Part shown: positions 25,009-41,956 of the stretch, in pieces
Numbering within the stretch: the stretch's first letter is position 1
Layout of the letters: every line of letters starts with the position of its first letter
Assembly (NCBI RefSeq): GCF_040529185.1
Contig: NZ_CP159510.1
Location: 62,001 to 126,000 of the forward strand
Length of the DNA stretch: 64,000 nucleotides
Direction of reading: 5' to 3'
Source: Sporolactobacillus sp. Y61
GTDB taxonomy: Bacteria > Bacillota > Bacilli > Bacillales > Sporolactobacillaceae
Notes under the pieces: model-generated
What the model saw: only the letters and a program-made list of their open reading frames with translations
Database searches by the model: none
Told to the model about the DNA's origin: nothing
Made by a program: the position numbers and the translations under genes

Positions 25009-25431
25009 CTAAATATAAAACATATTCGGACCTTGAATTTGTGAGCCTGAATCATTATGAATCAAATCGTCAAGCGTTGTCCCCTCCAAAATATTACAGA
25101 CGGCATCGTGAATTTTTGCCCACATTTCACGTTTTGCTAATTCATCTTCTTCAGCGACTTTTACAGGTTGAATCGGGCCATCTAACACCCGAATAACATT
25201 CGCTGCCGTGATCTCTTTTGGGGTTTTCGACAAAATGTACCCCTCGTATGCACCACGTACACTTTATACTAATCCGGCGTTACGGAGAGGGGCGACCAGA
25301 AGTTCCAAATAATTTTCGGAAAGATTATAGGCCTTAGCAATTGCATTCAACGACAGTGGTCCTTTACCCAGATTTTTGGCCAAAGCCATCATGATCGTCA
25401 GTCCGTAACGGCCCTTTGTCGAAATCAGCAT
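25009..25431 (-). pseudogene. Rrf2-family regulator with an in-frame stop codon
   Basis: From ATG 25431 the sequence reads MLISTKGRYGLTIMMALAK..., a CymR/IscR-like winged helix, and meets TAA at 25264-25266 where the family has Lys (GLV-K-SVRGAYGGY). The same frame continues V-R-G-A-Y-E-G-Y-I-L-S-K-T-P and ends at 25009, giving a full 140 residues. A single A-to-T change explains the stop. There is no cysteine cluster, so it is the non-iron-sulfur type. A partial product could start at TTG 25233. Confidence 0.8.
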
Positions 25432-25496: not shown

Positions 25497-25542
25497 ATAA
25501 TAAGCAATAAATGTGTGGATTTTGTTTGGAAACTATGTAGAA
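25497..25542 (-). promoter_or_regulatory. Predicted regulator-controlled promoter upstream of rrf2
   Basis: On the minus strand heptamers TTCTACA (25536-25542), TTCCAAA (25525-25531) and ATCCACA (25514-25520) lie at an exact 11-bp period, 11 bp before a -10 box TATTAT (25497-25502). Confidence 0.55.
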
Positions 25543-25693
25543 ACAAAATATGTTGTGAGGCGAAACACCTGCCATTACGTATGGCAGCAGTAAAACATCA
25601 GTAAAACAACATCATTCTGATTTGAAGTAACTTGTCATCGGAGTTATGTCTTTTTAAATTAGTTTTAATTTGTTTCTTTAATTATTAATATTG

Positions 25694-27328
25694 TTATCCT
25701 GCACAACAAGACAGCGAAGATATATCTTTGTCAAATGTGAGTGCTGCTAATCTCAGGCCCTCCGCCATAGTCAAATAGGGTGCAAGACTTTTCTGAAGAT
25801 CTTCTACAGTCAGCCCGAACTTAATGGCCAATGTTGCAGCATAAATCACGTCTCCCGCATTTTCAGCGACAATATGGACGCCCAGGACTTTGAGCGTCTT
25901 TGCTTCTGCCACTAATTTAAAGACACCAGTCGTCTCTCGATTAACGATTGCTCTGGGCACGGCATTTAAAGGCAGAACAGACGTTTTTACCTTAAGGCCC
26001 TTTTTTAGTGCCTGCTCTTCCGTTAATCCAACCGTGGCAGTTGATGGCGTTGTAAACATAACGCCCGGTACAATGCCTAAGTCAACTTTTCGACTAAGTC
26101 CTCCGACAGCGTTGTCTGCAGCAAGACCGCCTTGGTAAGCAGCGACATAGACGAACTGCGGGCCGAGCGTGACATCCCCAGCTGCATAAATACGTGGATT
26201 GGACGTTCTGGAAAATTCATCAATGAGGACTTCGCCCTGGGTACCGACCTTAACGTTTGCTAAATACAGATTTAAGTCTGCTGAGTTCGGTTTGCGTCCT
26301 GTTGCGACAAGTAGCTGCTCTGCTTCAATAACTTGTTCCTTACCCTCAGTCTCTATATGAACCTTCTTTATCTGCCCGTCTTGTTCGATACGCTTGAATT
26401 TTATTCCGGTAATAAAATGAATACCTTGTTGTGTTAAAGCTCGCCTTATGGTTTCCGATATTTCCGAATCATATTTTTTTAATAATTGATTGCCCCGCTG
26501 CATCAACGTGACTTCCGCACCTAAATAATGATAAAGCTGACCTAATTCAAAACCTACATAACCGGAACCGATGACCGCAAGACGTTTCGGGACCTTTTTC
26601 AGTTCAAGTAAAGTTGTGCTTGTTAAGAAATCCACATGATTTAATCCGGGAATATCGGGTATGAACGGTGAAGCACCGGTGGCGATTAAAAAACGTTTTG
26701 CCGTCAATTGTCTGCCATTCACTTCGACCGTTTTTTCATTGACAAACTTTGCCTCTCCTTTAATAAGTTCAAAACCATAAGTTCCAATTAAACTTTCATA
26801 CTTTTGGATCCGTAATGTTTCAACCAATTTATTTTTTTGCTTAACCAGTAGTGCTAAATCAGGTTCAGCTGCTGAAGTGTGCAATCCCTCGAATGGATGA
26901 TTTTTTGCCTGGTTATTAATTTCCCCGGCTCTGAGCAAGGTCTTAGAAGGAACACAACCGATATTGACACAGGTACCGCCCACTATACCTCTTTCTATCA
27001 TTGCCACTCTGGCACCATACTCTCTGGCTTTAATGGCTGAAGCAAAAGCCGCACCGCCAGAGCCAATAATAATATAATCGTAATCGTCTTCTTTATCAGA
27101 ATCTCCTTCTGTTTGAATCTGCATAAAATTCCCGGGTTGGTAGTGTGCTTCAACTATTGCCTGTTCCACAGCCTCCTTTTTAATATTAACTGGTAGCTTA
27201 AAAAAGGCTTCTCCACGATGATAATTAACCTTAATGTTTCTTGCACCAATATGTTCCAGAGCACTTGCCACATGGTCTTCACAACTGGCACAGGTCATCC
27301 CCTGAACAGTCATTCGATACGTTATCAT
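25694..27328 (-). CDS. merA: Mercuric reductase
   Basis: 544 residues from ATG 27328 with GGAGG. The N-terminal metal-binding domain has GMTCASC at residues 9-15; the flavin/NAD oxidoreductase core carries the redox pair in [15 protein letters not shown]; the C-terminus ends SSLSCCAG with the vicinal Cys pair that delivers Hg(II) to the active site. It reduces Hg(II) to Hg(0) with NADPH in the cytoplasm. It is 20 bp downstream of merR; no merT or merP was found in the window. Confidence 0.95.
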
Positions 27329-27348
27329 ATGAGTTCCTCCTCGTATTC

Positions 27349-27741
27349 TCACATTAAAGATCCAATAATGGGGCAATCATAAATTTCTTTATTCTCAGGA
27401 CATCTTTTTTTCAGATCGACAAGCATCTTTTCTACTTTTTTTAATTCCCCGATTTTACGCTGTATCTCACTAATCTTGTTAACGGTAAAATCATATATAT
27501 CCCTGCACTTCACTTCATTGCGGTCAACAACACCTAACAACTTGTCAATTTCATTCAATGTAAATCCTAATCTCTGCAACTTTTTAATAAAATTCACTCG
27601 ATCCACTGTTTGAGTCGTATAGAGACGGTATCCTTTAGCAGTACGAGAGGGAATTGAAATAAGCCCCAGCCGTTCATAGTACCGGATCGTTTCTTTGTTG
27701 ACGCAAGTTCGGCTGGCCAGCTGTCCGATTCGTAACCTCAT
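27349..27741 (-). CDS. merR: Mercury-responsive MerR regulator
   Basis: 130 residues from ATG 27741 (GAGGTGA site). The MerR helix-turn-helix ([24 protein letters not shown]) is followed by a dimer helix and the three Hg-binding cysteines: one in [10 protein letters not shown], two in [14 protein letters not shown]. It represses and, with Hg(II), activates the stretched promoter just upstream (27767-27788), which therefore controls merR-merA. Confidence 0.93.
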
Positions 27742-27760
27742 TTGTTTCACCTCATATACA

Positions 27761-27792
27761 ATATAAACCCTGTACCAAAGTACAGGGTCAAC
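27761..27792 (-). promoter_or_regulatory. MerR operator/promoter
   Basis: Perfect palindrome ACCCTGTAC-4-GTACAGGGT at 27767-27788. It sits between TTGACC (-35) and TTATAT/TATATT (-10) with a 19-20 bp spacer, the hallmark of MerR-activated promoters. Confidence 0.9.
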
Positions 27793-27857
27793 TCTTATTC
27801 CTAAACATAACTCCATATCATAACGATAAAATCATTAATCGTTCTTTTAGAATGGAC

Positions 27858-29021
27858 TCAACTGAAAAAAGAGCTTTTCTGATTAAAAAATTGGTCATAC
27901 AAATTTACTATATTGAATTTCTTGTACAGTTTGCTATAATCTCTTTTTCCTTCTAATACATCAAAAAGTAAGCTTAATAACTTAGGGAAACGAGAAACAA
28001 TTTTTTGCATCAATTTCGGATCTTTGTAAAATTCCCGGCCAAACTGATCCAATGTACTGAGTTCGGGCATGATTGTCAGATCAACATCTCTTTGATAGGT
28101 TGAAAATGCTTCATTATATCCATCCCTGATCGTCTTTATTAAATGGTCAGCAAGTAATTCAGCACTCCACAAAGCATAATAGATGCCCTCTCCGGCAAAT
28201 GAATCGACCAGTCCGGCTGCATCTCCGATTAATGCTGTTCGTTGCGTCATGATTGTCTGCCGGGTACCGCTGGCAGACAAAAAAGATCCTTTCGCACTTA
28301 GAAGATCTTCACTCACTTCCTGATGGTTCAGAAATGAATGCAAATATCTCGACATCAATTTCTGACCTAACGAGTAAGAACCGATACCTGCCGATAGAAT
28401 TCCATTTTTCGGAAATATCCATATATATCCGTCAGGTACACTGGTATAATCAATAATAACTTTGTGTTTATATTTTGTGTTTGTTGCCTGGTTACATCTG
28501 AATTCATATTCCAATGCCAGAGCTTTCCTGCGTTCCGACATTAACCCGACCTGTTTCGCAACGATACTGTTTACGCCATCGGCTCCAACCAAATACCGTC
28601 CTGAATATTTCTCATCCCTTGTGAAGACCTCGACCCCTCCACCATGCTCGACCACTTTTTTAACGAAGGAATCCTCTTTCAGTTCTGCACCACAGTCAAC
28701 GGCATGTTTCGCCAGTAGTTGATCCAATTCGTCTCTCATTACCATATAAATAAACGGCGTTTTATGTTTAAACTCCTGAATATCATGATTCCCTTCCACC
28801 GTGACAAATGAAGTGATCTGATCTCGAATAATCGGTGTGATATCAATCGGCATTTTCAGGAGGGCTCTCTTGGTTACCCCGCCTCCACATACTTTATAAC
28901 GCGGAAAACTTTGCTTCTCTACAATTAAAACATGAAGCCCTGCTTCAGCAAGTTTTGCTGCCAGTGAACTGCCACCGGGACCTGCTCCGACAATAATCAC
29001 ATCATAAAGCCTTGAATCCAT
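27858..29021 (-). CDS. Geranylgeranyl-reductase-family FAD oxidoreductase
   Basis: 387 residues. FAD motif DVIIVGAGPGGSSLAAKLAE at the N-terminus, then FPRYKVCGGGVTKRAL (the family's substrate-side motif), YLVGADGVNS, and ALIGDAAGLVDSFAGEGIYYAL. This is the geranylgeranyl/digeranylglycerophospholipid reductase family, which saturates isoprenoid chains. No archaeal-type lipid exists in bacilli, so quinone or prenyl-lipid reduction is possible. It precedes merR on the same strand inside the metal island; a functional tie to metal resistance is only inferred. Confidence 0.85.
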   Translation of the reverse strand: MDSRLYDVIIVGAGPGGSSLAAKLAEAGLHVLIVEKQSFPRYKVCGGGVTKRALLKMPIDITPIIRDQITSFVTVEGNHDIQEFKHKTPFIYMVMRDELDQLLAKHAVDCGAELKEDSFVKKVVEHGGGVEVFTRDEKYSGRYLVGADGVNSIVAKQVGLMSERRKALALEYEFRCNQATNTKYKHKVIIDYTSVPDGYIWIFPKNGILSAGIGSYSLGQKLMSRYLHSFLNHQEVSEDLLSAKGSFLSASGTRQTIMTQRTALIGDAAGLVDSFAGEGIYYALWSAELLADHLIKTIRDGYNEAFSTYQRDVDLTIMPELSTLDQFGREFYKDPKLMQKIVSRFPKLLSLLFDVLEGKRDYSKLYKKFNIVNLYDQFFNQKSSFFS

Positions 29022-29065
29022 TTTAATTCCTCCAGCTTACATCACTTAGAATATAATTGCACGGA

Positions 29066-29509
29066 CTACCTGTTCGTAACGCCATGATTGTGATCATGAG
29101 TATTTATACTGTCATTGTCGGAATCCTGATTTTGTGTATCAGGAGAAGGCTGAACGAATGTGGCGATCGTTTGGGGAATCGCAGAAAATACAATCACAAT
29201 CGAAAGAATTGATGAGATAGCATAAACCCATGCGATGGATCGTTCATGGCGCCATTTACGTTTTGCAACGAAAATAAATTGGACTGAAATAAGCAGAGAA
29301 ACAATTAACAGAATCATCTTCAAAAGAGGTGACATATTAAATAAAAACGCTCCAATCGATGTCAGACCCACTGAAATTAACAGTACATGCAGCCAATGGT
29401 GGGAGGTAGCAAGAATGGCGAACAGAACAGATCCTATTGACTTCAGCCAAGTTTTCCCCTGACCTGATTTCTTTGCATCCGAATCAGATTCAAGCGCTCG
29501 CTTTCTCAT
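29066..29509 (-). CDS. Small membrane protein with His/Asp-rich tail
   Basis: 147 residues, AGAGAGGAG site. Three or four hydrophobic segments (about 28-46, 50-80, 92-115) and a C-terminal tail rich in Asp, Asn and His (THDHNHG). SHHWLH near the first helix could bind a metal. There is no cysteine, which argues against a MerT-type mercury transporter. Unrecognised family. Located between the flavoprotein and lgt genes with 38-44 bp gaps. Confidence 0.7.
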   Translation of the reverse strand: MRKRALESDSDAKKSGQGKTWLKSIGSVLFAILATSHHWLHVLLISVGLTSIGAFLFNMSPLLKMILLIVSLLISVQFIFVAKRKWRHERSIAWVYAISSILSIVIVFSAIPQTIATFVQPSPDTQNQDSDNDSINTHDHNHGVTNR

Positions 29510-29547
29510 AACTTTTCTCCTCTCTACTCTCTATATTCCCTGTTTCC

Positions 29548-30339
29548 TTAAATTTTTTCCCTTTGATAATTTTTCGTTTGCCTATAGCGTCGGATCATAA
29601 AACCAATAGCGATTATAATTGTAAGCAGGGCAGTCACTTGAGCTGTTTTCAAATTAAATACGGTACTGAGGCTGTCGCCTCTCCAGAACTCCAACGAAAA
29701 TCTCAAAATCGAGTATAATTCCAGCATCAGAAGGAACAAGAATCCTTGAAATGGTTTTCTGTGTTTAATCAAAAACAGAATACCCAAAATCACAAGATCG
29801 CCGATCGCTTCGAATAAGGGTGTTGGCAATACCGGCGTGCTACCAAAGGCATGGTAGACAAACGTTCCCGGAGGATATGTAACAGCCAGGAACGAATCAC
29901 TTGGAATACCGTAGGCATCACCAGCGAGAAAATCGGATAAACGACCGATAGACATTCCGAGTATTAACGCCGGAGCGACGATATCCGCTACCTGCCAGAC
30001 CGGCAACTTATGTTTTTTCGCAAGCCAGATGCCAATTAAAATCCCACCAAGAATTCCACCTTGCAAGGCCAGTCCACCCATCCAAACCATAAGTATTTCT
30101 CCTGGGTGAGCCGCATAATAAGGCCATTTAAAAAGTACATACCATAATCTCGCCCCTATGACTCCACCCAGTACACAGTAGAGAGCAAATTCAACCATAT
30201 AATCGGCATTAATATTCTGCTTTCTGGCCTCACGATTCACGATCCATAAACCAAGCAGTGTTGAAAGCGCAACTGATACTCCTAAAGTATTGATCGCTAT
30301 TGGACCAACCCTAAATAAAACAGGTCCTGGAAACCACAC
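29548..30339 (-). CDS. lgt: Prolipoprotein diacylglyceryl transferase, accessory copy
   Basis: 263 residues, seven membrane segments. The Lgt signature is present as GRLSDFLAGDAYG; the preceding loop reads WMGGLALQGGILGG, with Gln where E. coli has His103 (other Gram-positive Lgt proteins also vary here). It moves diacylglycerol to the lipobox Cys of prelipoproteins. Its place in a copper island that also encodes a lipoprotein multicopper oxidase suggests a dedicated copy. It has its own predicted regulated promoter at 30384-30416. Confidence 0.92.
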   Translation of the reverse strand: MWFPGPVLFRVGPIAINTLGVSVALSTLLGLWIVNREARKQNINADYMVEFALYCVLGGVIGARLWYVLFKWPYYAAHPGEILMVWMGGLALQGGILGGILIGIWLAKKHKLPVWQVADIVAPALILGMSIGRLSDFLAGDAYGIPSDSFLAVTYPPGTFVYHAFGSTPVLPTPLFEAIGDLVILGILFLIKHRKPFQGFLFLLMLELYSILRFSLEFWRGDSLSTVFNLKTAQVTALLTIIIAIGFMIRRYRQTKNYQREKI

Positions 30340-30383
30340 GTATCGTCATCCTTTCCATGAATCTCATTTTTCTAATTTGAATC

Positions 30384-30416
30384 TTATAGTAAACATTTGT
30401 GGAAATGATATAGAAA
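30384..30416 (-). promoter_or_regulatory. Predicted regulator-controlled promoter of lgt
   Basis: Minus-strand heptamers TTCTATA (30410-30416) and TTCCACA (30399-30405) at 11-bp period, 9 bp before the -10 box TATAAG (30384-30389). Confidence 0.6.
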
Positions 30417-30541
30417 CAGTAAAGAAAACGATACCCCGTTTTTGTTTTCACTATCGGCAGATGTCATTTAGTGGCGTTAATGATTCGACTCTATCTATAA
30501 GTAAATAAGAAAAGATGACGATTAAACCATAGTCAACTTTT

Positions 30542-31195
30542 TTACGTGTGTTCTTTTTTTGTAAAATTAATCAAATGAATCCGGGGAATGAACCTGGGTA
30601 CTCTCTTCATATAATCGATATACTCTTTGCCAAACTCCTGTATCATATTTTGCTCCTCTTTTTTGGCCAGTTTTCTGTACATAATTAATAATGTTGGTGC
30701 CATGATCAGCGTAATCAATGTGGGCCACTGTATCAGGAAGCCAAGGATACTGAGTCCAAAACCAGTGTATTGAGGGTGACGGACAAATCGATAAATTCCA
30801 TCCTGGACTAATTTTCCATGGCCAGAATGTATTTTTCTCCAACCAATCCAAATTATAATTAACCCACCAAAAATAAACACATTGCTTAATGGATGCAGAA
30901 TTTCAAACAATACCGGAGATCCTCCCGTTAGCGCCACCCAGAGATGGCCATTTATATGATTGAAGGGATCAAGGACCGGATAATTTTTACCTAAAATCGA
31001 TGTCAGAATATAAATGGTCAAAGGAAAACCGAACATCTCGCTGAACAACGCGACTATAAATCCTGTAAATGCCCCTAAGGTTCGCCAGTCCCGCTTCGTT
31101 GTCGGCTTAAAAACAGACAGTGCAAATAGTCCAAAGAAAATGATGTTAAACAGAACAGCGCCCCATAGACCATATGCGTATTCATTCTCCGGCAA
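30542..31195 (-). CDS. ICMT/PEMT-like membrane methyltransferase
   Basis: 217 residues, TTG start after GGGGAG. About five membrane helices precede the SAM-binding C-terminal block GIYRFVRHPQYTGF ... EEQNMIQEFGKEYIDYMKRVPRFIP, typical of isoprenylcysteine carboxyl methyltransferase and phospholipid methyltransferase families. The acceptor may be a lipid or a prenylated molecule. It follows the cupredoxin gene by 35 bp, in the copper ATPase operon. Confidence 0.85.
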   Translation of the reverse strand: MPENEYAYGLWGAVLFNIIFFGLFALSVFKPTTKRDWRTLGAFTGFIVALFSEMFGFPLTIYILTSILGKNYPVLDPFNHINGHLWVALTGGSPVLFEILHPLSNVFIFGGLIIIWIGWRKIHSGHGKLVQDGIYRFVRHPQYTGFGLSILGFLIQWPTLITLIMAPTLLIMYRKLAKKEEQNMIQEFGKEYIDYMKRVPRFIPRIHLINFTKKEHT

Positions 31196-31230
31196 GACTA
31201 AATCTCCCCTCTCAGCTGTTTTTATTTGTT

Positions 31231-31611
31231 TCAGTTTTTAACAATAATCTTTCCCTTGAACATGCCCATTTGGCAATTAAAATCATAGGCACCTGTTTTC
31301 ATAGGAGGAAGATCGACGATCACTTTCTCGCCGGCAGGAAGCGTTGCGCTTTTCTCAAAATCGGGAAAGACCACCATGCCGTCGCATGCGCCGGTCTCAA
31401 CTCGAGTAAATTCAAATCGAACTGGCTTCCCGCTCTGTACAAAAATTCGGGAAGGATTGTAACCATTCTTGACAAGAATCTTTGCTTCCTGGTATCCGGA
31501 TGCATTGATTTCCGCCTGACTCCCACCTTTTTTCGGTCCCCAGAAAAACCAGGCTATGACACCCACTAATAACAATCCTCCGATCGTAACAATCCAATCC
31601 AATCCAATCAC
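31231..31611 (-). CDS. Membrane-anchored cupredoxin-domain protein
   Basis: 126 residues. One N-terminal helix (GLDWIVTIGGLLLVGVIAWFF) anchors a beta-sandwich with copper ligands in the pattern ETGACDGMVVFPDF ... NCQMGMFKGKIIV (Cys, His-less Met cluster). Such single-domain cupredoxins often accompany CopA-type ATPases and probably shuttle or buffer copper outside the membrane. Start GTG 31611 or the in-frame TTG three codons later. Nine bp after the ATPase gene. Confidence 0.85.
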   Translation of the reverse strand: MIGLDWIVTIGGLLLVGVIAWFFWGPKKGGSQAEINASGYQEAKILVKNGYNPSRIFVQSGKPVRFEFTRVETGACDGMVVFPDFEKSATLPAGEKVIVDLPPMKTGAYDFNCQMGMFKGKIIVKN

Positions 31612-31620
31612 CCTCTTTTT

Positions 31621-33696
31621 TTAACTGAATTTTAATTTTAATCCCTTTAAACGATTAGCATTAAGGACAACGGTTAAAGAACTGAAAGCCATCGCGGCCG
31701 CAGCGAAAAGCGGCGATAATAAGATTCCGGTGAAGGGATAGAGGACGCCTAAAGCAACGGGAATGCCGATTGCGTTGTATATAAAGGCACCAAATAAGCC
31801 TTCGTAAATGTTTCTCATCGTTGCGCGGCTCACTTTGATTGCACTGACGACCCCTTTCAGACTGCCCGAAATTAGAGTAATATCGCTGGCTTCGATTGCG
31901 ACATCTGTACCGGTTCCGATTGCAATACCGACATCCGCCTGAGTAAGCGCAGGTGCATCATTAATGCCATCACCAACCATGGCCACCTTTTTGTCCTCTT
32001 TCTGGAGATTTCGGACATTCTCAGCTTTATCCTGCGGAAGCACCTCTGCCAGTACTCGACCAATACCGACCTGTCTGGCAATCGCATGAGCCGTCCGCTC
32101 ATTGTCCCCGGTAATCATTACGATTTCAAGGCCCATCGCTTTCAATTCACGAATAACGGATATCGAATCACTCTTTACCGTGTCTGCAACTGCGACAATT
32201 CCCCCAGGTTCTCCATCAATTGCCAGAAACATCGGCGTTTTTCCTTGATCGGCAATAGATGAGGCATAACGTTGAAAACCGTCCAGCGGAATATTTTTTT
32301 CTTTCATCAATTTTAAGTTGCCAAAATAGATTTTCTTCCTGTCCACAATTCCTTCGACTCCATGTCCCGGGATCGCATTGAAGTCTGTACTTTGAACAAC
32401 TGTCAGCCCTTCTTCTCTTGCCTTTTCCACTATAGCGGATGCCAGTGGATGCTCTGAACCTTGTTCAATCGATGCGGTAATCAAAAGAACTTCTACTTTA
32501 GAGAAACTTCCTAATGGAATGATATCTGTCAGGGAAGGCCTACCCTCCGTAATGGTACCGGTTTTATCCATAACAATGGTTTCCAGTTTTTGGGCAATCT
32601 GAAGTGCTTCTCCTGAACGAATTAAAATCCCATTTTCTGCTCCCTTCCCAATGCCTGTCGTGAGTGACATTGGAGTGGCCATCCCCAAGGCACATGGGCA
32701 GGCAATAATCAATGTCGTCACGGCAACGACCAGGGCGTAAACCCATCCGGGCTGCGGCCCAAAATTAAACCAGACGAGATAACCAAGTATGGCTGCGATA
32801 ATCACCCCTGGTGTAAAGATAGACGAGACCTTATCGACTACTTTTTGAACCGGTATCCGGGAGCCCTGAGCTTGCTTAACCATCTCGACGATGTTGGCCA
32901 GAGCCGAATCTTTTTGTTCCTTGGTCACGAGAAGTGTGAAGCTTCCCGTTTTATTCAGTGTTCCTCCGAACACTTCATCGCCCTTTTTCTTTTCAACCGG
33001 GATGGATTCCCCGGTCAGCATGGATTCATCAATCGCCGACCCTCCGGAAAGAATGATCCCATCAATAGCAACCTTTTCACCCGGCCGGACGATGATCTGA
33101 TCGCCGATTTTTATTTCTTCAAGCGGTATCTTGACTTCCTTCCCGTTCCGAACAACATTCGCTGTCTGCGGCTGCAGAGCGATCAACTTATTGATTGCCT
33201 CAGACGAACGCCCTCGCGCTTTGACTTCTAACGCCGATCCAAGCACAACCAGTGCCGTAACAACCGTAGTCACATCGTAATATACATCGGCCATTTCCGG
33301 GCGGGGGAAAATTTGCGGCCAAAACAGGGCAATCATTGAATAGAGCCACGCTGCCGATACACCGGTTGCGATCAACGTATTCATATTTGCGGAGCGTTGT
33401 TTTATGCTCTCCCATGCTCCGATAAAAAATTGTCCGCCACTTCGAATGACAACATACAGAGCTAACAAACCCATGACCAACCGCGTCCACCAGAGTTGTT
33501 CACTGCCCATTGGCAACAGGTCTCCCAGCCCAAATAAATTTGGATAAGAGACTAAGATAACAGGAACGGATACGATGGCTGCCCGCCACCATTTTCTCAT
33601 CAAAGAACGATATTCCTGTTCTTCACCGGAACTTTTCTGGTCGCTCCTTTGTTCTGAATGTGTATGACCTTCCATCATCGTGTCTTCTTCTCTCAC
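31621..33696 (-). CDS. Copper-translocating P1B-type ATPase without HMA domain
   Basis: 691 residues, GTG start with AGGAGGGG. The short N-terminus is His/Gln/Glu-rich (EGHTHSEQ) and lacks an HMA domain. Core motifs: [12 protein letters not shown] (CPC metal site in helix 6), phosphorylation loop [23 protein letters not shown], and [11 protein letters not shown]. The CPC site indicates Cu(I)/Ag(I) export. First gene of an operon with cupredoxin and ICMT-like genes, driven by the triple-repeat promoter at 33843-33886. Confidence 0.94.
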
Positions 33697-33842
33697 TTTT
33701 CACCCCTCCTTTGAAATTTTAAAAAAACATGGTTAATTTGTTCTTCTTTAAATGGATGATCCAAACCATCGCTCATGTTTGTTAAATGGTTGTCGACTGC
33801 CTGCCATGTACCTTATTGAATAGGTTCCCCTCACTTATAGAT

Positions 33843-33886
33843 GGTATAGGAAAATCATGTAGAATTTGAGTAGAAAGCATGTAGAA
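33843..33886 (-). promoter_or_regulatory. Predicted regulator-controlled promoter of the copper ATPase operon
   Basis: Three minus-strand heptamers TTCTACA (33880-33886), TTCTACT (33869-33875) and TTCTACA (33858-33864), exact 11-bp period, 9 bp before -10 TATACC (33843-33848). The rest of 33697-34050 shows no gene. Confidence 0.65.
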
Positions 33887-34052
33887 TCTGTTTACAACTA
33901 CTAAATAATAAGGTGCTGATCGATTGATGCCCATTCGTCTCTTTTAATATGATGAATGTCATGAATTTTATAATCTCGAGTTACATTTGTTGTTGCTCCT
34001 TAAGTTTTGTCATCTTTTCATCCGCCTTTAATATCTACAATGACTATTAAAC

Positions 34053-34086
34053 AGGGGCGAAAAAACCGAATCGATTTTTCGCCCCT
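34053..34086 (-). terminator. Terminator of the His-rich small-protein operon
   Basis: Perfect 12-bp arms AGGGGCGAAAAA/TTTTTCGCCCCT with a 10-nt loop; weak TTTAAT tail on the minus strand. Confidence 0.7.
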
Positions 34087-34122
34087 GCCGTTGAAATTAT
34101 CTTTTTCATTTCTAATTTACAT

Positions 34123-34398
34123 TTAATGATGGTGCTCTTTATCTTTTTTCATTATTCCCGGCATCATGAACAGATGCATCAATGGGCAAATGAGGACTGC
34201 AGCGAGAATAAGCAGATTTGCGGATCCTGAAACGCCGCCTGTTAAGAATAAACCGACAACCACGGCGATGGGAATGATGAAGCAGATCGCCATCATCAAG
34301 CTATGGTTGTGATTATGCGTTCCATGATGATCCAGATTGTTATTTCCCTGGTTGTGATTTTCATGGCTCTGATGATCATGATTTCCGCAACAATTCAT
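34123..34398 (-). CDS. His-rich DUF2933-like membrane protein
   Basis: 91 residues with a CAGGAGGG site. The N-terminus MNCCGNHDHQSHENHNQG is packed with Cys and His; two hydrophobic segments follow (ICFIIPIAVVVGLFL; LLILAAVLICPLMHLF) and the protein ends EHHH. The arrangement resembles the DUF2933 small membrane proteins found beside copper genes. Probably binds copper or another soft/borderline metal at the membrane. Third gene of a small operon. Confidence 0.75.
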   Translation of the reverse strand: MNCCGNHDHQSHENHNQGNNNLDHHGTHNHNHSLMMAICFIIPIAVVVGLFLTGGVSGSANLLILAAVLICPLMHLFMMPGIMKKDKEHHH

Positions 34399-34435
34399 CG
34401 AAATCCCTCCTGAATTCTATTCCTTTATTACTGTT

Positions 34436-34585
34436 TTACGATTGGCGCTTCCCCTGATGATGATCATTGTGTCCTTTTAACAGATCCGATTTCTTCTGCG
34501 CCTCATGAGTAGGCGTGTGCTGCTGAGTGTGCTGATGGTGCTCAGATTGATGGTCTTGATGATTGTGATCTCCGCAACATGACAT
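34436..34585 (-). CDS. 49-residue His/Gln-rich small protein
   Basis: ATG 34585 with GGAGA eight bases upstream; 49 codons to TAA at 34436-34438. It starts MSCCGDHNHQDH, closely matching the N-terminus of the downstream gene (MNCCGNHDHQSH), and has 12 His in 49 residues with no membrane segment. Likely a soluble metal-binding peptide or a shortened paralogue. It lies between the genes at 34602-34793 and 34123-34398 with gaps of 16 and 37 bp. Confidence 0.65.
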   Translation of the reverse strand: MSCCGDHNHQDHQSEHHQHTQQHTPTHEAQKKSDLLKGHNDHHQGKRQS

Positions 34586-34601
34586 AAAACATGTCTCCTG
34601 G

Positions 34602-34793
34602 TTATTCATTTTTGTTTTTGAGTTGCTGCAGTTGCTCGCGTAAAAGGTGATTCTGTTCCTTCAGTTCGTTTAATTCAGACGAATTTTTCTGGTGTTTCGA
34701 ATGATCTGCGTCTGAATGATCCCCCTTCATCATAAACATCATGGGAAGCATCATCAGGGGGCAGGCAAGTAAGAGTAGCCATGACCAATCCAT
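34602..34793 (-). CDS. Small DUF2933-like membrane protein with coiled coil
   Basis: 63 residues with a GAGGAGG site. One membrane helix rich in Met, Cys and Pro (LLLLACPLMMLPMMFMM) followed by a KGDHSDADHSKHQ linker and a short leucine-zipper-like coil (LKEQNHLLREQLQQLK). Met/Cys/His content suggests copper contact. First gene of the His-rich trio, behind a clear TATAAT promoter with two regulator heptamers. Confidence 0.7.
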   Translation of the reverse strand: MDWSWLLLLACPLMMLPMMFMMKGDHSDADHSKHQKNSSELNELKEQNHLLREQLQQLKNKNE

Positions 34794-34825
34794 CGATTTC
34801 TTCCTCCTCTCGTTCTTTATACTGA

Positions 34826-34860
34826 ATTATAGGCAGGAATTGTGTGGAATCTGTGTGGAA
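34826..34860 (-). promoter_or_regulatory. Predicted regulator-controlled promoter of the His-rich trio
   Basis: Two perfect minus-strand TTCCACA heptamers (34854-34860 and 34843-34849) at 11-bp period, 11 bp before a consensus -10 TATAAT (34826-34831); no -35 box is evident. Confidence 0.7.
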
Positions 34861-34896
34861 AACAAGTCTTTATACGAAAAAGAAAATTTGGAGGGA

Positions 34897-35097
34897 CTAC
34901 CGTTTATTTCGGTAATGAAACCATAAATAGAGGCCGCCGATGACGACCACCGGACAGGCGACCCACATGCAGGCTCTGACAAAAGTCCTTCCGAAAGCGA
35001 GTAAACTTTCGTGGCCAAAGGCATTAGCGGAGAAGAACAGGCAGGTCAGCCCCATAATAATTAAAAAAAGGGAAAGAAACCAATCGATTTTTTTCAT
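34897..35097 (-). CDS. Small two-helix membrane protein
   Basis: About 66 residues from ATG 35097 (an in-frame GTG at 35121 overlaps the kinase stop codon and would add 8 residues). Two hydrophobic segments: WFLSLFLIIMGLTCLFFSANAF and VRACMWVACPVVVIGGLYLWF. Unrecognised. It follows the histidine kinase directly, so it is probably co-expressed and might modulate the kinase. Confidence 0.6.
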   Translation of the reverse strand: MKKIDWFLSLFLIIMGLTCLFFSANAFGHESLLAFGRTFVRACMWVACPVVVIGGLYLWFHYRNKR

Positions 35098-35120
35098 GGC
35101 TGCACGTCGTCCTTTCTCCA

Positions 35121-36500
35121 CTACTTTTTATGAGGAAAACGCAGAATAAAAGTTGTCCCTGTTCCTTTTTGACTCTTCACATCGACTGTGCCGCCCTGCA
35201 TCTCAACATACTTCTTGACAATGGACAGGCCGAGACCAGTCCCGCCATATTTCCGTGCTCTTGACTTCTCCACACGATAAAAGCGGTCAAAAAGATACGG
35301 CAGCTCATGCTCAGGGATCCCGATTCCGGTGTCCGATACAGATAAAACGGTCGCTTCCTTCTCATCAGTCAGCTGAACAGAAACATGTCCCCTTTCCGTA
35401 TAACGGATCGCATTTTCAAGCAGGTTCAGCAGCACCTGTTCCATGCGCTGACGATCCCCATAAACAGGCGGCACATGATCTTGCAGCTCCAATTGCAGAC
35501 TTAATTGCTTTTTTTCTGCCTTGAGTCGGACCTTCTGCATAGCTGTTTTCGCCATTTCTTTGAGATCGAGCGGTTCCAGGGAGAGCGTGATCCGTCCCTC
35601 TTCCATCTTTGCAAGGTCAAACAGATCATGGATTAAATGTTCCAGCCGGACGGATTCCTGATAAATGATCGAAAGATACTGCTTTTTCTCCCTTTCAGAA
35701 TCCACCAGGCCATCGTTCAGCACTTTGGCATAGCCTTGCAGATAAGTCACCGGCGTGCGAAGTTCATGGGAAATATTTGAGAAAAAAGCGCGCCGCGAGT
35801 CCCGATATCTTTGCAGACTCGCCGCCAGATCATTAATGGAACGTCCGAGCTTGCCGATTTCGTCCCGGCCCTTCACCTGAAGGCGGGTATCCCAGTTTCC
35901 CTTTGCCATTTTATCAGTCATTTGCTGCATTTTCAGCAGCGGGCGGGAAAATAATTTGCTCATGATCACAATCAGACCAAGGGCAAGGAGAAAGGCCCCT
36001 AATCCGGAAAGCAGCAGCAGATTTCGCAGTTGCTGCAGAGACGCTTCCATGTTTTTCGTTGAAGCCATCACATAGATGGCCGAATGTGTTGCCCCTCCCT
36101 TTTGAACGGGCCTGCCAACAATATAAAACTTTCCACGGGCATCGCTTCTCAAAAAAGACTCAGCGTGGCCCTCCAGCAGGCGGCGGGTATCCTGCGCTTT
36201 TATTAAAGACAGATTTTCTTCTTCACCAGGAAATGTCACGATTTTTCCCCGGTCGTTTACCCATAAAACTTCTACATCCGAAAACTCGGCAAAGGTACGA
36301 ATCATCGATTGAGTGGTGGCTTCACCGGACTCAGCCATCGTAGTAAAATGAGCGGCGATTTGCTGCGTATCTTCTTTCATCTGCGTATCGTAAAAATTCA
36401 TAAATAATCGATCAACGGCAAAACCTGAAAATACCAGAATCACAATCATCAACGCCATCACTGCCGCACCCAGTTCAAGAGCGATCCGATTGATTTTCAT
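35121..36500 (-). CDS. Sensor histidine kinase (copper-island two-component system)
   Basis: 459 residues. Two membrane helices (about 10-30 and 165-185) enclose a roughly 130-residue extracytoplasmic sensor; then HAMP, HisKA with SNISHELRTPVTYL (phospho-acceptor His), and HATPase with NLLENAIRYTE, VSDTGIGIP and YGGTGLGLSIVKKY. ATGA overlap with the response regulator gene indicates coupled translation. The location between copper ATPases, CopZ and His-rich proteins suggests sensing of periplasmic-side copper (inference). Confidence 0.92.
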   Translation of the reverse strand: MKINRIALELGAAVMALMIVILVFSGFAVDRLFMNFYDTQMKEDTQQIAAHFTTMAESGEATTQSMIRTFAEFSDVEVLWVNDRGKIVTFPGEEENLSLIKAQDTRRLLEGHAESFLRSDARGKFYIVGRPVQKGGATHSAIYVMASTKNMEASLQQLRNLLLLSGLGAFLLALGLIVIMSKLFSRPLLKMQQMTDKMAKGNWDTRLQVKGRDEIGKLGRSINDLAASLQRYRDSRRAFFSNISHELRTPVTYLQGYAKVLNDGLVDSEREKKQYLSIIYQESVRLEHLIHDLFDLAKMEEGRITLSLEPLDLKEMAKTAMQKVRLKAEKKQLSLQLELQDHVPPVYGDRQRMEQVLLNLLENAIRYTERGHVSVQLTDEKEATVLSVSDTGIGIPEHELPYLFDRFYRVEKSRARKYGGTGLGLSIVKKYVEMQGGTVDVKSQKGTGTTFILRFPHKK

Positions 36501-37204
36501 GATTGTCCGGCCTCTGTCTCAAATTTATAGCCGACGCCCCAGCTTGTCTGGATCGGATGATAGGCCAGGCCTGATCTTTTTAACTTCTCTCTGATATTTT
36601 TGACGTGTATATCGACTACTCGGGCATCTCCTTCAAAATCATAGCCCCATATTTTTTCGATTAACTGCTCGCGGGACAGGACGCGCCCTTTATTTTCCGC
36701 CAGTGTCATCAACAGGTCGAATTCTTTAGGCGTCAAATCAAGCGGCTGGTCATGAACAAAAATCCGCCGTCCGTCCCTGTCAAGCGTCAGCCCGGGAAAG
36801 TGGAGCAGATGATCTTCCGATTGTTGGGGTGAAACGAAAGAAGCACGGCGAATAAGCGCATGGACACGGGCGATCAATTCTTCCGGATCAAACGGTTTGG
36901 TCAGATAATCATCCGCCCCGAGTTCAAGGCCCTGAACCTTATCTTTTGTCTCATCCAGTGCAGTCAGCATCAAAATGGGGACCGTCCGGATTTCCCGAAT
37001 CGATCGACAGACTTCCCAGCCATCCATATGGGGCATCATGATGTCAAGGATCACCAGGTCAAAAGATTGATTTTTCATTTTCACAAGGGCTTCACAACCA
37101 TCAGCGGCTTCAACAGGATCAAATCCAGCTTTTGATAAATAGATGCGCAGCAGATTGCGCATCTTCCATTCGTCATCAATGACCAGGATTTTCAGCTTTT
37201 TCAT
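36497..37204 (-). CDS. OmpR/PhoB-family response regulator
   Basis: 235 residues from ATG 37204 (AAAGGTGAT site). Receiver domain: VIDDEWKMRNLL, phospho-acceptor Asp in LVILDIMMPHMDGWEV, Lys in DDYLTKPFDPEEL. Winged-helix effector: LTPKEFDLLMTLAENKG and GYDFEGDARVVDIHVKNIREKL. OmpR-family dimers bind 10-11 bp direct repeats, which fits the TTCYACA heptamers found at five promoters in this island. A hairpin (CAGGTT/AACCTG) lies in the 5' region 37205-37300. Confidence 0.93.
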   Translation of the reverse strand: MKKLKILVIDDEWKMRNLLRIYLSKAGFDPVEAADGCEALVKMKNQSFDLVILDIMMPHMDGWEVCRSIREIRTVPILMLTALDETKDKVQGLELGADDYLTKPFDPEELIARVHALIRRASFVSPQQSEDHLLHFPGLTLDRDGRRIFVHDQPLDLTPKEFDLLMTLAENKGRVLSREQLIEKIWGYDFEGDARVVDIHVKNIREKLKRSGLAYHPIQTSWGVGYKFETEAGQS

Positions 37205-37377
37205 GATCATCACCTTTTCTTATCATATAACCCATGTTTTTTCTCGAAAAACAGGTTCATCTCATGCCTGTCATAAACCTGGTTTCCGTTTTCTTCTAAC
37301 GCCTCATCCCAGCTGAGTCACGTTCCTCACTATCAATCGCAACCGGTTCCCGCTCAATTTCTCTCTTAAAGTGTGAA

Positions 37378-37409
37378 AAGGTGCCTTCACCATGCGGCGA
37401 GGCACCTTT
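37378..37409 (-). terminator. Terminator after the CopZ-like gene
   Basis: AAAGGTGCC/GGCACCTTT arms (37378-37386, 37401-37409) with T4 following on the minus strand. Confidence 0.75.
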
Positions 37410-37414
37410 CCTGA

Positions 37415-37630
37415 TTAATTATGACCGACTACATCGTAGCCCTGCTTTTCGACAGCTTCCTTCATGTCGTTAAACCGGACTTTCGTGTCGTCATACTCAA
37501 CGGCCGCCTGACCTGAGGGCAAATCCACTTCAGCCGCTGAAACGCCATTCAGGTCTTTCAGTGTCTTCGTCACCAGGCGTTTGCAGTGGTCACCCATCAT
37601 ACCTTTGACATTCAATGTTGTTTTTGCCAT
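37415..37630 (-). CDS. CopZ-like HMA-domain protein with a degenerate metal site
   Basis: 71 residues from ATG 37630 with AAAGGAG. The ferredoxin-like HMA fold is clear (TTLNVKGMMGDHCKRLVTKTLKDLNGV ... AVEYDDTKVRF, split here for length), but the CxxC loop reads G-M-M-G-D-H-C: the first Cys is Gly. Normal CopZ carries Cu(I) to CopA on two thiols. One Cys may still bind copper in a dimer. It lies 35 bp downstream of copA and precedes a terminator. Confidence 0.85.
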   Translation of the reverse strand: MAKTTLNVKGMMGDHCKRLVTKTLKDLNGVSAAEVDLPSGQAAVEYDDTKVRFNDMKEAVEKQGYDVVGHN

Positions 37631-37665
37631 TTGACTCAAACTCCTTTACTGATTATTTTCCGGCA

Positions 37666-40065
37666 TCAGATTTTCACACGTTTCAGGCGCAAACTGTTTG
37701 CAACAACAGAAACAGAACTAAAGGCCATGGCTGCACCGGCAACCCATGGTGCAAGGAGTCCGAATGCAGCTACAGGAATGCCGACCGAATTATAGAACAG
37801 TGCCCAGAACAGGTTCTGACGAATGTTTCGCATCGTTTTCCGGCTCAAATCAATGGCTTTTGGAATATGAAGCAGATCGCCGCCGACCAAGGTGATGTCG
37901 GCTGCCTCAATGGCAACATCCGTACCGGTACCGATTGCCATGCCGATATCCGCCGTAGCAAGCGCCGGTGCATCATTGATGCCGTCGCCGACCATGGCCA
38001 CTTTCAACCCTTTGTTCTGAAGAACCTTTACTTTCGCTGCTTTTTCTTCAGGAAGAACTTCGGAAAACACATGGTCAATACCCGCCTGCCTGGCAATAGC
38101 CTGCGCCGTTCGCTCGTTGTCACCCGTAATCATATAGACGGCAAGGCCATGGGCTTTCAATTTTTCAATGGCCTGCTTTGAAGACGATTTAATGGCGTCG
38201 GCAACCGCGACGATCCCCTGAAGCCTGCCGTCACTTGCGACAAACATCGCCGTCTTCCCTTCTGATTCAAGCTGCTTCATTTGCTGCTCACTATCCGCAT
38301 AGGCAATACCTTCCTCTTTCATCAACCGCCGCGTGCCGATCGCAACCTCTTTTCCGGAGACAACGGCTTTAATACCGTAACCAGCCACTGCTTTAAACTT
38401 GTCGGGGGATGAAAGCGCCGGGTGACTTTGTTTACCGAAGGCGACAATCGCCTGTGCCAGGGGATGTTCACTTGCTGATTCAGCTGAAGCAGCAAGCGAC
38501 ACCAGTTCATTTTGATCAGAACCGTTCAACGGGATAACATCTGTCACTTCCGGTTTTCCTTTTGTAATCGTCCCGGTCTTATCAAGCAGTATCGCCTGCA
38601 GATTGTGCGTCGTTTCGAGATACTCACCCCCCTTAAAGAGAATGCCATGCTCAGCTCCTTTGCCGGTTCCGACCATGATAGACGTCGGCGTCGCCAGACC
38701 CAGGGCGCATGGGCAGGCGATCACCAGCACACTGATTGCCGCAACGAGTGCCGGAGCGAACTGACCTGGTGTGACAAACAGAATCCAGACAAGGAAAGCC
38801 AGCAGTGCGATGCCGATGACGATCGGCACAAAGATACCCGAAATGCTGTCGGCGAGCCGCTGGATTGGTGCCTTGGATCCCTGCGCCTCCTCAACGATTT
38901 TGACAATCGAGGCCAGTGCGGTGTCCTTACCTACTTTTTCGGCCCGCATCGTCAGTGTCCCATTGGCATTCACCGTGGCACCAATGACTTTGTCATCTCT
39001 TCCCTTTTCAACGGGAATCGATTCGCCGGTAATCATCGACTCGTCAACCGATGACTCGCCGTCAGTGACGATACCGTCTACCGGTACTTTCTCTCCGGGT
39101 TTGATACGAAGCACGTCCCCGACAGCTACCTGGTCAATCGGCACTTTTCGTTCCTGACCGTTCTCAATGACCGTAGCCTCTTTCGCCGAAAGTCCCATCA
39201 GTTCCGTGATCGCCGCAGTGGTTCTCCGCTTTGCCCGGCTCTCAAAATATTTGCCTAAGAGGACAAGCGTGATCAGAATGGCACTCGTCTCGAAATAAAG
39301 ATCCGGATTGGTAAGCCCGCCGAACTGGAAGCGGAATGTTTCAAATGCACTGTAAAACCAGGCGGCACTTGTCCCAAGCGCAACCAGTACATCCATATTG
39401 GCGCTTTTATTAATCAAAGCCTTTGTCCCGCTGATGTAGAACTGCCCGCCGATATAGAACTGGACAATTCCGGCAACAACAAGCTGAAACCACGGATTCA
39501 TCAACAGATCCGGCATGGGAAGCCCTGTCTGGAACGGCAGATGGGCCAGCATGGTGTAGAGCAGCGGAAGTGAGAGAACAGCAGACAGGATCAGTTTCTG
39601 CAACTTTTTTCTCAGCTCCCGCTCTTTGGTGTCCTCTGTCTGTTCTTTTTTGGGAACAGCCTGGTAACCAAGTTTTTTCACGCGGTTATAGATCGCATCA
39701 GGATCAACAATCCCGGGTTGAAAAATTACCATCCCGGACTCTGTCGCCAGATTGACCTGAGCGGATACAACGCCGGCCATCCGATTCAGTCCCTTTTCGA
39801 TACGCGCGGCACAGGAGGCACAGGTCATTCCCATAATATCGGCATCGAGCCTCTTCGTTCGTACGCCATAACCTAACTTTTCTATTTTTTGGACAATATC
39901 CGCCGGCTTTGTCTTTTCTTCATCAAGAGTTACTTTTGCCTTTTCCAGTGCAAGATTAACATTCGCCTGAACACCGTCCATCCTGTTAAGCGATTTTTCA
40001 ATTCTTGCAGAACAGGAGGCGCAGGTCATTCCTGTAATCCCGATTTGTATCGCCTTTGAACTCAT
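37666..40065 (-). CDS. copA: Copper-exporting P1B-type ATPase with two HMA domains
   Basis: About 799 residues from ATG 40065 (AGGGAG nine bases upstream); an upstream in-frame extension of 41 codons runs into the promoter and is not used. Two HMA domains each with GMTCASC, then the ATPase core: [15 protein letters not shown] (CPC), [39 protein letters not shown] and the C-terminal helix with [17 protein letters not shown]. It exports Cu(I). Operon copA-copZ, under the TTGACA promoter that overlaps a CsoR-like operator. Confidence 0.96.
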
Positions 40066-40159
40066 CCCTCTCATCTCCCTGTATGATGACTTCAGAAAAA
40101 ATATCATAAACATCCGGAATCGTTTTGTATCCATTAAAGAATTACCGTACTTCATGTTC

Positions 40160-40188
40160 ATGATACCCCCATAGGGTATATATGTCAA
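40160..40188 (-). promoter_or_regulatory. copA promoter with CsoR-like operator
   Basis: Minus strand TTGACA (40183-40188), 17-bp spacer, TATCAT (40160-40165). The spacer carries the inverted repeat ATACCC-5-GGGTAT (within 40163-40179), the form of CsoR operators. Transcription would start about 88 nt before the copA ATG. Confidence 0.8.
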
Positions 40189-40241
40189 AGTATCCGATAC
40201 ATGCCTGTCTCTATTTGCACAACTTTCTTAGATTCTCCCTT

Positions 40242-40280
40242 ATTCTAATAAACAAATGTGTAGATTTTGTCAGGATAGAA
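40242..40280 (-). promoter_or_regulatory. Possible second, weak regulator site toward copA
   Basis: Minus strand ATCTACA (40259-40265) lies 11 bp before TAGAAT (40242-40247); the next repeat position reads ATCCTGA, a poor match. The flank is similar to the site upstream of rrf2. Confidence 0.3.
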
Positions 40281-40316
40281 AAAAATCCTGTCTTTTTTCT
40301 TCCGCCATTTTTCAAT

Positions 40317-40349
40317 CTTCACAGTTTCCCCACATTTATACGCTACACT
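40317..40349 (+). promoter_or_regulatory. Predicted regulator-controlled promoter of the multicopper oxidase
   Basis: Plus-strand heptamers CTTCACA (40317-40323) and CCCCACA (40328-40334), 11-bp period, 9 bp before -10 TACACT (40344-40349). Confidence 0.55.
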
Positions 40350-40378: not shown

Positions 40379-41956
40379 ATGAAAAAATTGCTTTTCGCCG
40401 CCGTCATCGGGTTCGCCTTACTGATCTTCACGGCGTGTTCTGCGAATACAGAAAACGGCAATGAAGGAACGGCTCAGCAGGAAGCGGGCGGTGAAACGGC
40501 GACATTACCATCACCTCCAATACTAAAGGGACCAAATATCACGCTTGTTGCTAAAAAGGGGGCACAAAAGTTAAAGAACGGCGTCACCGTTCCGGTCTGG
40601 ACATTTAATGGAACGGCTCCCGGCCCGGAAATTCGCGTGAAAAAAGGGCAGAAAGTGCGTGTCACGCTTAAAAATGAACTCCCCTCACCTGTTTCCATAC
40701 ACTGGCACGGTTATCCGGTCCCAAATAAAATGGACGGCGTTCCGGGCGTGACGCAGGACGCCGTTGCACCCGGAAAGAGCTTTACCTATTCGTTTGTCGC
40801 TGACAGAGCGGGAACCTACTGGTATCATTCACATCAGGACTCAGTAAACCAGGTGGATCGGGGATTATATGGCGCTTTTATTGTCGAAGATCCCGAAGAA
40901 AAATATGATAGGGAGTACACGCTGATGCTGGATGAATGGGTGACCGATAAAAGTCAGATCGACCGCCAGATTAAGTCTATGACTCAGGGAAGCGGCCAAA
41001 AAGGCAGTAATGACTCTGGAGGAATGAATCATATGCCCGGGATGAACATGGGAGACAATGGCGACATGGATATGGGCGACATGGATATGGGCAACATGGG
41101 CATGTCCGGAAATATGATGAAAGATAACATGAGCATGTATGACCTGTATACGATCAACGGAAGGAGCGGCAACTCAGTTAAACCACTGGACGTTAAAAAG
41201 GGCGATCATGTCCGGCTTCGTTTCATTAATGCCGGCTATCTCCCGCACAGTATTCATATCCATGGCCATCGCATCAGGGTTATCGCAACCGACGGGCAGC
41301 CGATTAACAAGCCTCAGACCGTTAAGGATCAGGTCATTCCCATAGCCCCTGGTGAACGCTATGATGTTTCCTTTATTGCCGACAATCCGGGAAAATGGTA
41401 CATTGAAGATCATGGAACCGCCAAGGGTACGGACGGCATGAAAGCCGTTATTGACTATGAGGGAAGCAAAACAACAACCGATCGTTCTGATGCCGACTTG
41501 TCTTTGCCGGCAATCAGCCTCGACCAATACGGAGCAAGCGCAAAACCGACGTTCACTCTGAACCAGAAATATGATGTGAACTACACGATGGATTTGAACG
41601 CTGGCATGGACAACAACGGGATGATCTATACTATTAATGGAAAGACTTTTCCGAATTTCGATCCAATCAAAGTCAAAAAGGGGGACCGTGTAAAGGTTAA
41701 ACTGGTCAATCATGATCATATGAATAATCATCCAATGCATCTGCATGGTCATTCTTTTCAGATCCTCAGTAAAAATGGCAAGCCGATAACCGGTTCACCT
41801 GTTTATAAAGATACTTTAAATATGAAGCCGGGAGAAACCTATGAAGTCGCCTTCCTGGCCAATAATCCCGGAAACTGGCTGTTTCACTGCCACGATCTTC
41901 ATCATGCAGCGACCGGGATGATAACAGAAGTCAACTATACAGATGATAGTAAATAG
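40379..41956 (+). CDS. Lipoprotein multicopper oxidase
   Basis: 525 residues, AAAGGA site. Signal peptide with lipobox (LLIFTAC, Cys20). Copper sites: HWHG and WYHSH in the first domain, then SIHIHGH, and the C-terminal HPMHLHGHSF and HCHDLHH, so type 1, 2 and 3 copper ligands are all present. Between the cupredoxin domains (residues about 215-245) is a Met-rich loop (NMGDNGDMDMGDMDMGNM), as in CueO-type cuprous oxidases. It likely oxidises Cu(I) to less toxic Cu(II) outside the membrane. Co-directional SHOCT gene follows. Confidence 0.93.
   Translation: MKKLLFAAVIGFALLIFTACSANTENGNEGTAQQEAGGETATLPSPPILKGPNITLVAKKGAQKLKNGVTVPVWTFNGTAPGPEIRVKKGQKVRVTLKNELPSPVSIHWHGYPVPNKMDGVPGVTQDAVAPGKSFTYSFVADRAGTYWYHSHQDSVNQVDRGLYGAFIVEDPEEKYDREYTLMLDEWVTDKSQIDRQIKSMTQGSGQKGSNDSGGMNHMPGMNMGDNGDMDMGDMDMGNMGMSGNMMKDNMSMYDLYTINGRSGNSVKPLDVKKGDHVRLRFINAGYLPHSIHIHGHRIRVIATDGQPINKPQTVKDQVIPIAPGERYDVSFIADNPGKWYIEDHGTAKGTDGMKAVIDYEGSKTTTDRSDADLSLPAISLDQYGASAKPTFTLNQKYDVNYTMDLNAGMDNNGMIYTINGKTFPNFDPIKVKKGDRVKVKLVNHDHMNNHPMHLHGHSFQILSKNGKPITGSPVYKDTLNMKPGETYEVAFLANNPGNWLFHCHDLHHAATGMITEVNYTDDSK

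Follow-up and report, generated by a model that had tools for sequence, protein, structure and literature searches.

A candidate copper-envelope regulon marked by an 11-bp direct-repeat promoter code in Sporolactobacillus

In the PHO box, each turn contains seven conserved and four loose nucleotides, and PhoB is described as binding these units head to tail and contacting sigma (PMC4415409). The boxes reported here resemble those of PhoB and PhoP in E. coli, B. subtilis and Streptomyces in having 7-nt core direct repeats at an 11-nt period, but the heptamer is TTCYACA rather than the CTGTCAT of E. coli or the GTTCACC of S. coelicolor given in that account (PMC4415409), and the genes behind them, unlike the PHO regulon, are copper, lipoprotein and envelope genes. 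In C. glutamicum, the OmpR-family regulator and kinase of the CopRS system are clustered with a multicopper oxidase and a copper ATPase, and the described operator, a 9-bp direct repeat with a 2-bp linker, has the same 11-bp period as the island boxes (PMC3353115, PMC3140484). CopRS is reported to have a single genome-wide site, TGAAGATTTnnTGAAGATTT, located 266-285 bp upstream of the cg3286 start (PMC3140484), whereas the island carries boxes at at least five promoters, with an 11-bp gap to the -10 element. Judged by these descriptions, CopRS is the nearest functional likeness.

Two further groups are relevant. According to PMC8275575, copper induces a second lgt (lgt2) and a lit gene (lit2) in Listeria and Enterococcus, both transcribed together with copper-resistance genes that sit on a mobile element. 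Here, by contrast, boxes associated with a two-component system precede the island lgt and, in one relative (G003), a lit gene whose operon comes before the regulator. The heavy-metal regulators cztR/silR/copR (TIGR01387) are also OmpR-family proteins of metal resistance; the island regulator scores below the cut-off of this family (183.3 against 279.2), as does the island kinase for TIGR01386 (207.5 against 292.55). No description of the regulon was found in the open-access (PMC) papers searched.

Gene content and promoter boxes of the island

The window, by which we mean the whole 64-kb stretch of DNA that was analysed, spans positions 62,001-126,000 of a 3.22-Mb single-contig genome. Its minus strand carries a copper cluster comprising CopZ/CopA, a response regulator and kinase, His-rich DUF2933 proteins, a second copper ATPase with a cupredoxin, an lgt operon, merR, merA and an M23 peptidase; the multicopper oxidase of the island is on the plus strand. 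The genes considered here are:

23660-24820, minus strand: M23 peptidase with a PcsB coiled coil
29548-30339, minus strand: second prolipoprotein diacylglyceryl transferase (Lgt)
31231-31611, minus strand: cupredoxin-like protein
31621-33696, minus strand: heavy-metal P-type ATPase of the copper-translocating subfamily (TIGR01511, 588.8 against a cut-off of 397)
34123-34398, minus strand: His-rich 91-aa DUF2933 protein
34602-34793, minus strand: 63-aa DUF2933 protein, the first gene behind its box
34897-35121, minus strand: 74-aa membrane-like protein without a Pfam match, syntenic after the kinase in relatives
35121-36500, minus strand: HAMP histidine kinase, the presumed partner sensor
36497-37213, minus strand: OmpR-family response regulator, the presumed box binder, given its Response_reg and Trans_reg_C domains and the co-occurrence of its orthologues with boxes
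40379-41956, plus strand: multicopper oxidase with a signal peptide that is lipobox-like by eye

An initial sequence-only reading had proposed that TTCYACA-like heptamers recur at an 11-bp period at five promoters that have no visible -35 box, and that the island encodes an OmpR-family response regulator. All five sites were found, and the hexamers 16-18 bp upstream of all five -10 elements have at least three mismatches to TTGACA. Both domains of the regulator score above their cut-offs, the receiver (PF00072) at 111.5 bits and the winged-helix Trans_reg_C (PF00486) at 97.2 bits. The spans below run from the first heptamer through the -10:

25497-25542, minus strand: box before a broken rrf2 gene and the M23 peptidase; TTCTACA/TTCCAAA/ATCCACA at period 11, N11, -10 TATTAT
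30381-30415, minus strand: lgt promoter box; TTCTATA/TTCCACA, N11, -10 TAAGAT
33841-33886, minus strand: box of the copper ATPase at 31621-33696; TTCTACA/TTCTACT/TTCTACA, N11, -10 TACCAT
34826-34860, minus strand: box of the His-rich/DUF2933 small genes; two exact heptamers, TTCCACA/TTCCACA, N11, -10 TATAAT, 0 mismatches
40315-40349, plus strand: box of the lipoprotein multicopper oxidase; weak ATCTTCA-N4-TTCCCCA, N11, -10 TACACT, 3 mismatches of 17
40242-40276, minus strand: weak candidate box before copA; ATCCTGA/ATCTACA, N11, TAGAAT, 4 mismatches

The gap between the last heptamer and the -10, initially given as 9 or 11 bp, needs correction: 11 bp can be read at all five sites, for example TTCCACA-N11-TAAGAT at lgt and TTCTACA-N11-TACCAT at the ATPase. 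The mixed reading arose because TATAAG, TATACC and a shifted register at the oxidase had been taken, and the 11-bp reading is settled because the orthologues agree. Within the window, the 4-bp and 11-bp spacers differ among sites. The promoter of the regulator itself has no box, its best candidate having 8 mismatches.

The original proposal joined the surroundings of two ATPases in the regulon; for CopA, the second of them, the candidate box is weak, and a similar copA box at 5 mismatches occurs in three of seven CopA loci (L042, L045, L046). The palindrome-like stretch ATACCCCCATAGGGTAT (40161-40186), located where the copA frame begins, resembles a CsoR operator. Mercury genes had also been counted in the island, and merR and merA do lie downstream of lgt, but they have a MerR-type regulator of their own. 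An inverted repeat before merR (27760-27790) resembles what is presumably the MerR operator of merR itself, and given this repeat the mercury genes are probably under separate control. The Rrf2-family gene behind the first box (25246-25431, minus strand) is interrupted by an in-frame stop; G058, a genome grouped as the same species, has the gene intact (142 aa).

Counts within the genome and across the genus

In the whole-genome scans the control was the pattern read backwards. Allowing one mismatch, TTCYACAN4TTCYACA gave eight hits in the 3.2-Mb genome against four in the control; five lie at four island promoters and three elsewhere, each inside an open reading frame (by eye, a restriction-modification methylase, an ABC-transporter ATPase and a Fur-like regulator). 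Four promoters within 9.3 kb at the control rate have a chance of about 7e-10. With two mismatches the pair alone is unspecific in one genome (86 hits against 68). A whole-genome scan anchored to the -10, as the sequence-only reading had suggested, used the composite TTCYACA-N4-TTCYACA-N11-TANNNT. At up to two mismatches it gave seven hits against four in the control, five at the same four island promoters and two in coding sequences; at up to three it is unspecific in one genome (37 against 36). Because the motif was derived from the sites of the window themselves, other genomes provide the fair test.

Orthologues of the regulator, 74-81% identical, are present in 11 of 13 genus mates and in G024, which is grouped in another genus; that of Sporolactobacillus sp. 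THM7-4 is 78% identical. Two genus mates, G004 and G005, lack a close orthologue, the best match in G004 reaching about 47%. The relatives share the gene order regulator, kinase, 74-aa protein and 63-aa DUF2933 protein, and a box precedes the DUF2933 gene in all 11 regulator-bearing genus mates, in G024 and in THM7-4 (15 loci). The ATPase promoter has an orthologous box in seven loci, the island lgt has a box with at most one mismatch in seven of seven loci examined, the window included, and the rrf2 box is found at the same place in G058, G002, G003, G006, G010 and G011. At the oxidase, 10 of 11 loci have a box with 2-4 mismatches whose distance from the start is 29-32 bp, the eleventh being not assessable; it is this conservation in orthologues, rather than counts, that argues for the oxidase box.

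Across 18 loci of these relatives plus the window (416 kb), heptamer pairs with at most one mismatch number 41 at period 11 and 20 at period 22, which is twice 11, with 1 at period 7, 3 at 15, 6 at 17, 2 at 18 and none at the remaining periods from 8 to 21. At 19 unique sites in relatives picked by their heptamers alone, TANNNT follows at 11 bp in 16 and at 7-10, 12 or 13 bp in none; in two of the three exceptions the register overshot by one repeat, and the third has CAATCT instead. In the 12 regulator-bearing Sporolactobacillus-group genomes the composite at up to two mismatches gave 93 hits against 54 in the backwards control, exceeding it in nine genomes, equalling it in one and falling below it in two, and 51 of the 93 lie less than 20 kb from a regulator orthologue (hand count). 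The regulator-lacking G004 and G005 gave two and three hits. One locus of G004, a lone multicopper oxidase with a SHOCT gene (L196), keeps its box despite the lack of a close regulator orthologue. Hit counts per genome across 58 relatives show weak contrast only.

Many of the genus-mate islands are near-identical copies and hence not independent. Long stretches of the island loci of G024, G006, G010 and G011 (L042, which is from G024, and L041, L043 and L045) show 97-99% identity, which points to recent horizontal transfer of the copper island; one of these genomes is grouped in another genus. A plasmid carrier was not found: with the regulator-kinase DNA as query, none of 29 plasmid records covered 80% of it.

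Orthologue loci across the Bacilli

A first comparison covered 82 loci of distant regulators. A composite hit at up to three mismatches occurred in seven of seven loci with recognised copper-cluster genes and in 12 of 75 others (Fisher 1.3e-5), two of the seven being called by a SHOCT match beside the regulator or kinase only and one by the 74-aa protein only. Controls in this comparison were nominally significant as well (p = 0.011 for gap 9, p = 0.036 for period 7), and a class-wide sample was therefore drawn. Among its 398 genomes, 40 contain a match to the regulator at E<=1e-72; 40 loci were taken from 35 of these genomes, and the regulator orthologues there are 49-62% identical to that of the window.

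In these 40 loci the composite gave 32, 62 and 110 hits at up to one, two and three mismatches, in 19, 27 and 34 loci, respectively; six loci had no hit even at three. By contrast, 75 loci (1.37 Mb) of other regulator relatives with no recognised copper gene gave 0, 2 and 17. With the gap held at 11, periods of 7, 8, 9, 10, 12, 13, 14 and 15 yielded no hit at up to one mismatch and 1, 4, 7, 0, 4, 1, 5 and 1 at up to two; with the period held at 11, gaps of 9, 10, 12 and 13 yielded 12, 4, 11 and 18 at up to two. TANNNT stands 11 bp behind 30 of 31 unique pairs found by their heptamers alone, and behind none at 7-10 or 12-15 bp. TTCYACA itself ranks first among the 630 arrangements of its letters, with 62 hits against 45, 44, 35 and 34 for the next four and a median of 0. 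Fifty-nine of the 62 hits fall outside open reading frames of at least 150 aa, and for 44 of them, by a hand count in which hits include double registers of one promoter, the picked reading frame starts 6-65 bp downstream. In several of the 40 loci neither a copper pump nor an oxidase was recognised within 8 kb, and the signal in such loci may not be copper.

Proposed mechanism and extent of the regulon

The repeats are a real cis-code, better supported than first proposed, and very probably define one regulon. The sequence-only reading had predicted a common regulon linked to the OmpR-family regulator of the island, and the comparative data support it, as boxes accompany the regulator's orthologues. 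We consider it likely that this regulator (36497-37213) binds the repeats and switches on the copper, lipoprotein and envelope genes. The sequences show the boxes themselves, how they are spaced and conserved, and that they accompany orthologues of this regulator; binding, activation and a copper signal are inferred. In the scenario that we envision, the membrane-bound kinase responds to a metal or envelope cue, most likely an excess of copper, and phosphorylated regulator molecules line up head to tail over two or three heptamers on the same face of the helix, with the last heptamer exactly 11 bp before a sigma-A-type -10. The regulator would stand in for the missing -35 and recruit RNA polymerase in a PhoB-like manner. 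Copper would then be exported and oxidised, and His-rich copper-binding proteins, a second Lgt serving the lipoproteins and envelope genes would be expressed. Copper is the presumed signal because of the gene content in the genus, with the oxidase, two copper ATPases, the cupredoxin and CopZ. The mechanism, being PhoB-like, is already known in kind; its footprint is unusually wide and regular.

The resemblance to PHO boxes bears on two alternatives. Phosphate control, which the sequence-only reading had asked to see excluded, is unlikely as the main function: the two off-island composite hits at up to two mismatches are both in coding sequences, and the regulator scores 216.5 against NCBIfam PhoB (TIGR02154), under the cut-off of 296.2. 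Another member of the regulator's family, such as a chromosomal PhoP, WalR or ResD homologue, might instead bind the boxes, with the island having borrowed its operator. The 7+4 tandem form attributed to PHO boxes (PMC4415409) would fit such a regulator, the genome holds 25 matches to the island regulator at E<=0.001 and the G004 oxidase has its box despite lacking a close orthologue. A borrowed operator nevertheless seems improbable to us, as five of the seven composite hits in the genome are at island promoters and the other two inside coding sequences, and as boxes amount to two hits in the 75 loci of other regulator relatives but occur in 27 of the 40 loci of this regulator's orthologues.

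It is highly unlikely that an alternative sigma factor reads the last heptamer as its -35. Although the distance from heptamer to -10 is fixed at nearly every site, a sigma factor has no need of two or three heptamers spaced one helical turn apart, a gap of 11 bp is short for a -35 to -10 spacer, which is usually about 16-18 bp, and the -10 form TANNNT is that of the ordinary sigma factor. We give just as little credence to the idea that the boxes are alike only because promoter DNA was recently duplicated or moved along with the island, without shared regulation. In the 40 class-wide loci, heptamers, period and gap stay constant while flanks, genes and spacers differ, and the spacers vary even inside the window, all of which speaks against this idea, even though the 97-99% identity of the G024, G006, G010 and G011 loci shows the island to be horizontally mobile.

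If the island regulator does bind the boxes, their distribution outlines its targets. The M23 peptidase, initially offered as a possibility, is confirmed as a likely target by a conserved site in G003 and G006 (L229/L230), where the box directly precedes an M23 orthologue 69% identical to that of the window and no reading frame of at least 50 aa starts between them. In G003 (L044:1186-4315) a box is followed by an operon of PspA, DUF4178, DUF4247 and Lit that leads into the regulator, and G002 has a second PspA box far from the regulator. With only slightly more confidence than doubt, we propose that one hitherto unrecognised two-component system, distributed over the class Bacilli and in part mobile, uses this rigid code (period 11, 11-bp gap) to couple copper defence to lipoprotein making (Lgt, Lit), to cell-wall proteins (the M23 peptidase and a CWB2 lipoprotein) and to the membrane-stress protein PspA, which would constitute a Gram-positive copper-envelope regulon. 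The code gives a rule by which operators and promoters can be searched for in a regulator group present in 40 of 398 sampled class genomes (E<=1e-72), and through which regulons and functions could be assigned to DUF2933, DUF6803 and SHOCT genes. Sharing an operator may also explain why enzymes that modify lipoproteins travel with copper genes.

Boxes in the class-wide loci also precede DUF2933-like genes and the regulator itself. A Pfam scan of ten downstream genes from these loci identified two multicopper oxidases, Lgt, SHOCT, a CWB2 protein, DUF6803, a rhodanese and an FtrD-like protein, with two genes giving no match. In Alicyclobacillus sp. SP_1, a box-like site with 3 mismatches lies before a PspA gene (L089:5460-6211). 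A DUF6803 membrane protein stands behind near-perfect boxes in many loci of large genomes (L239:12391-12885 and similar loci of L233-L272).
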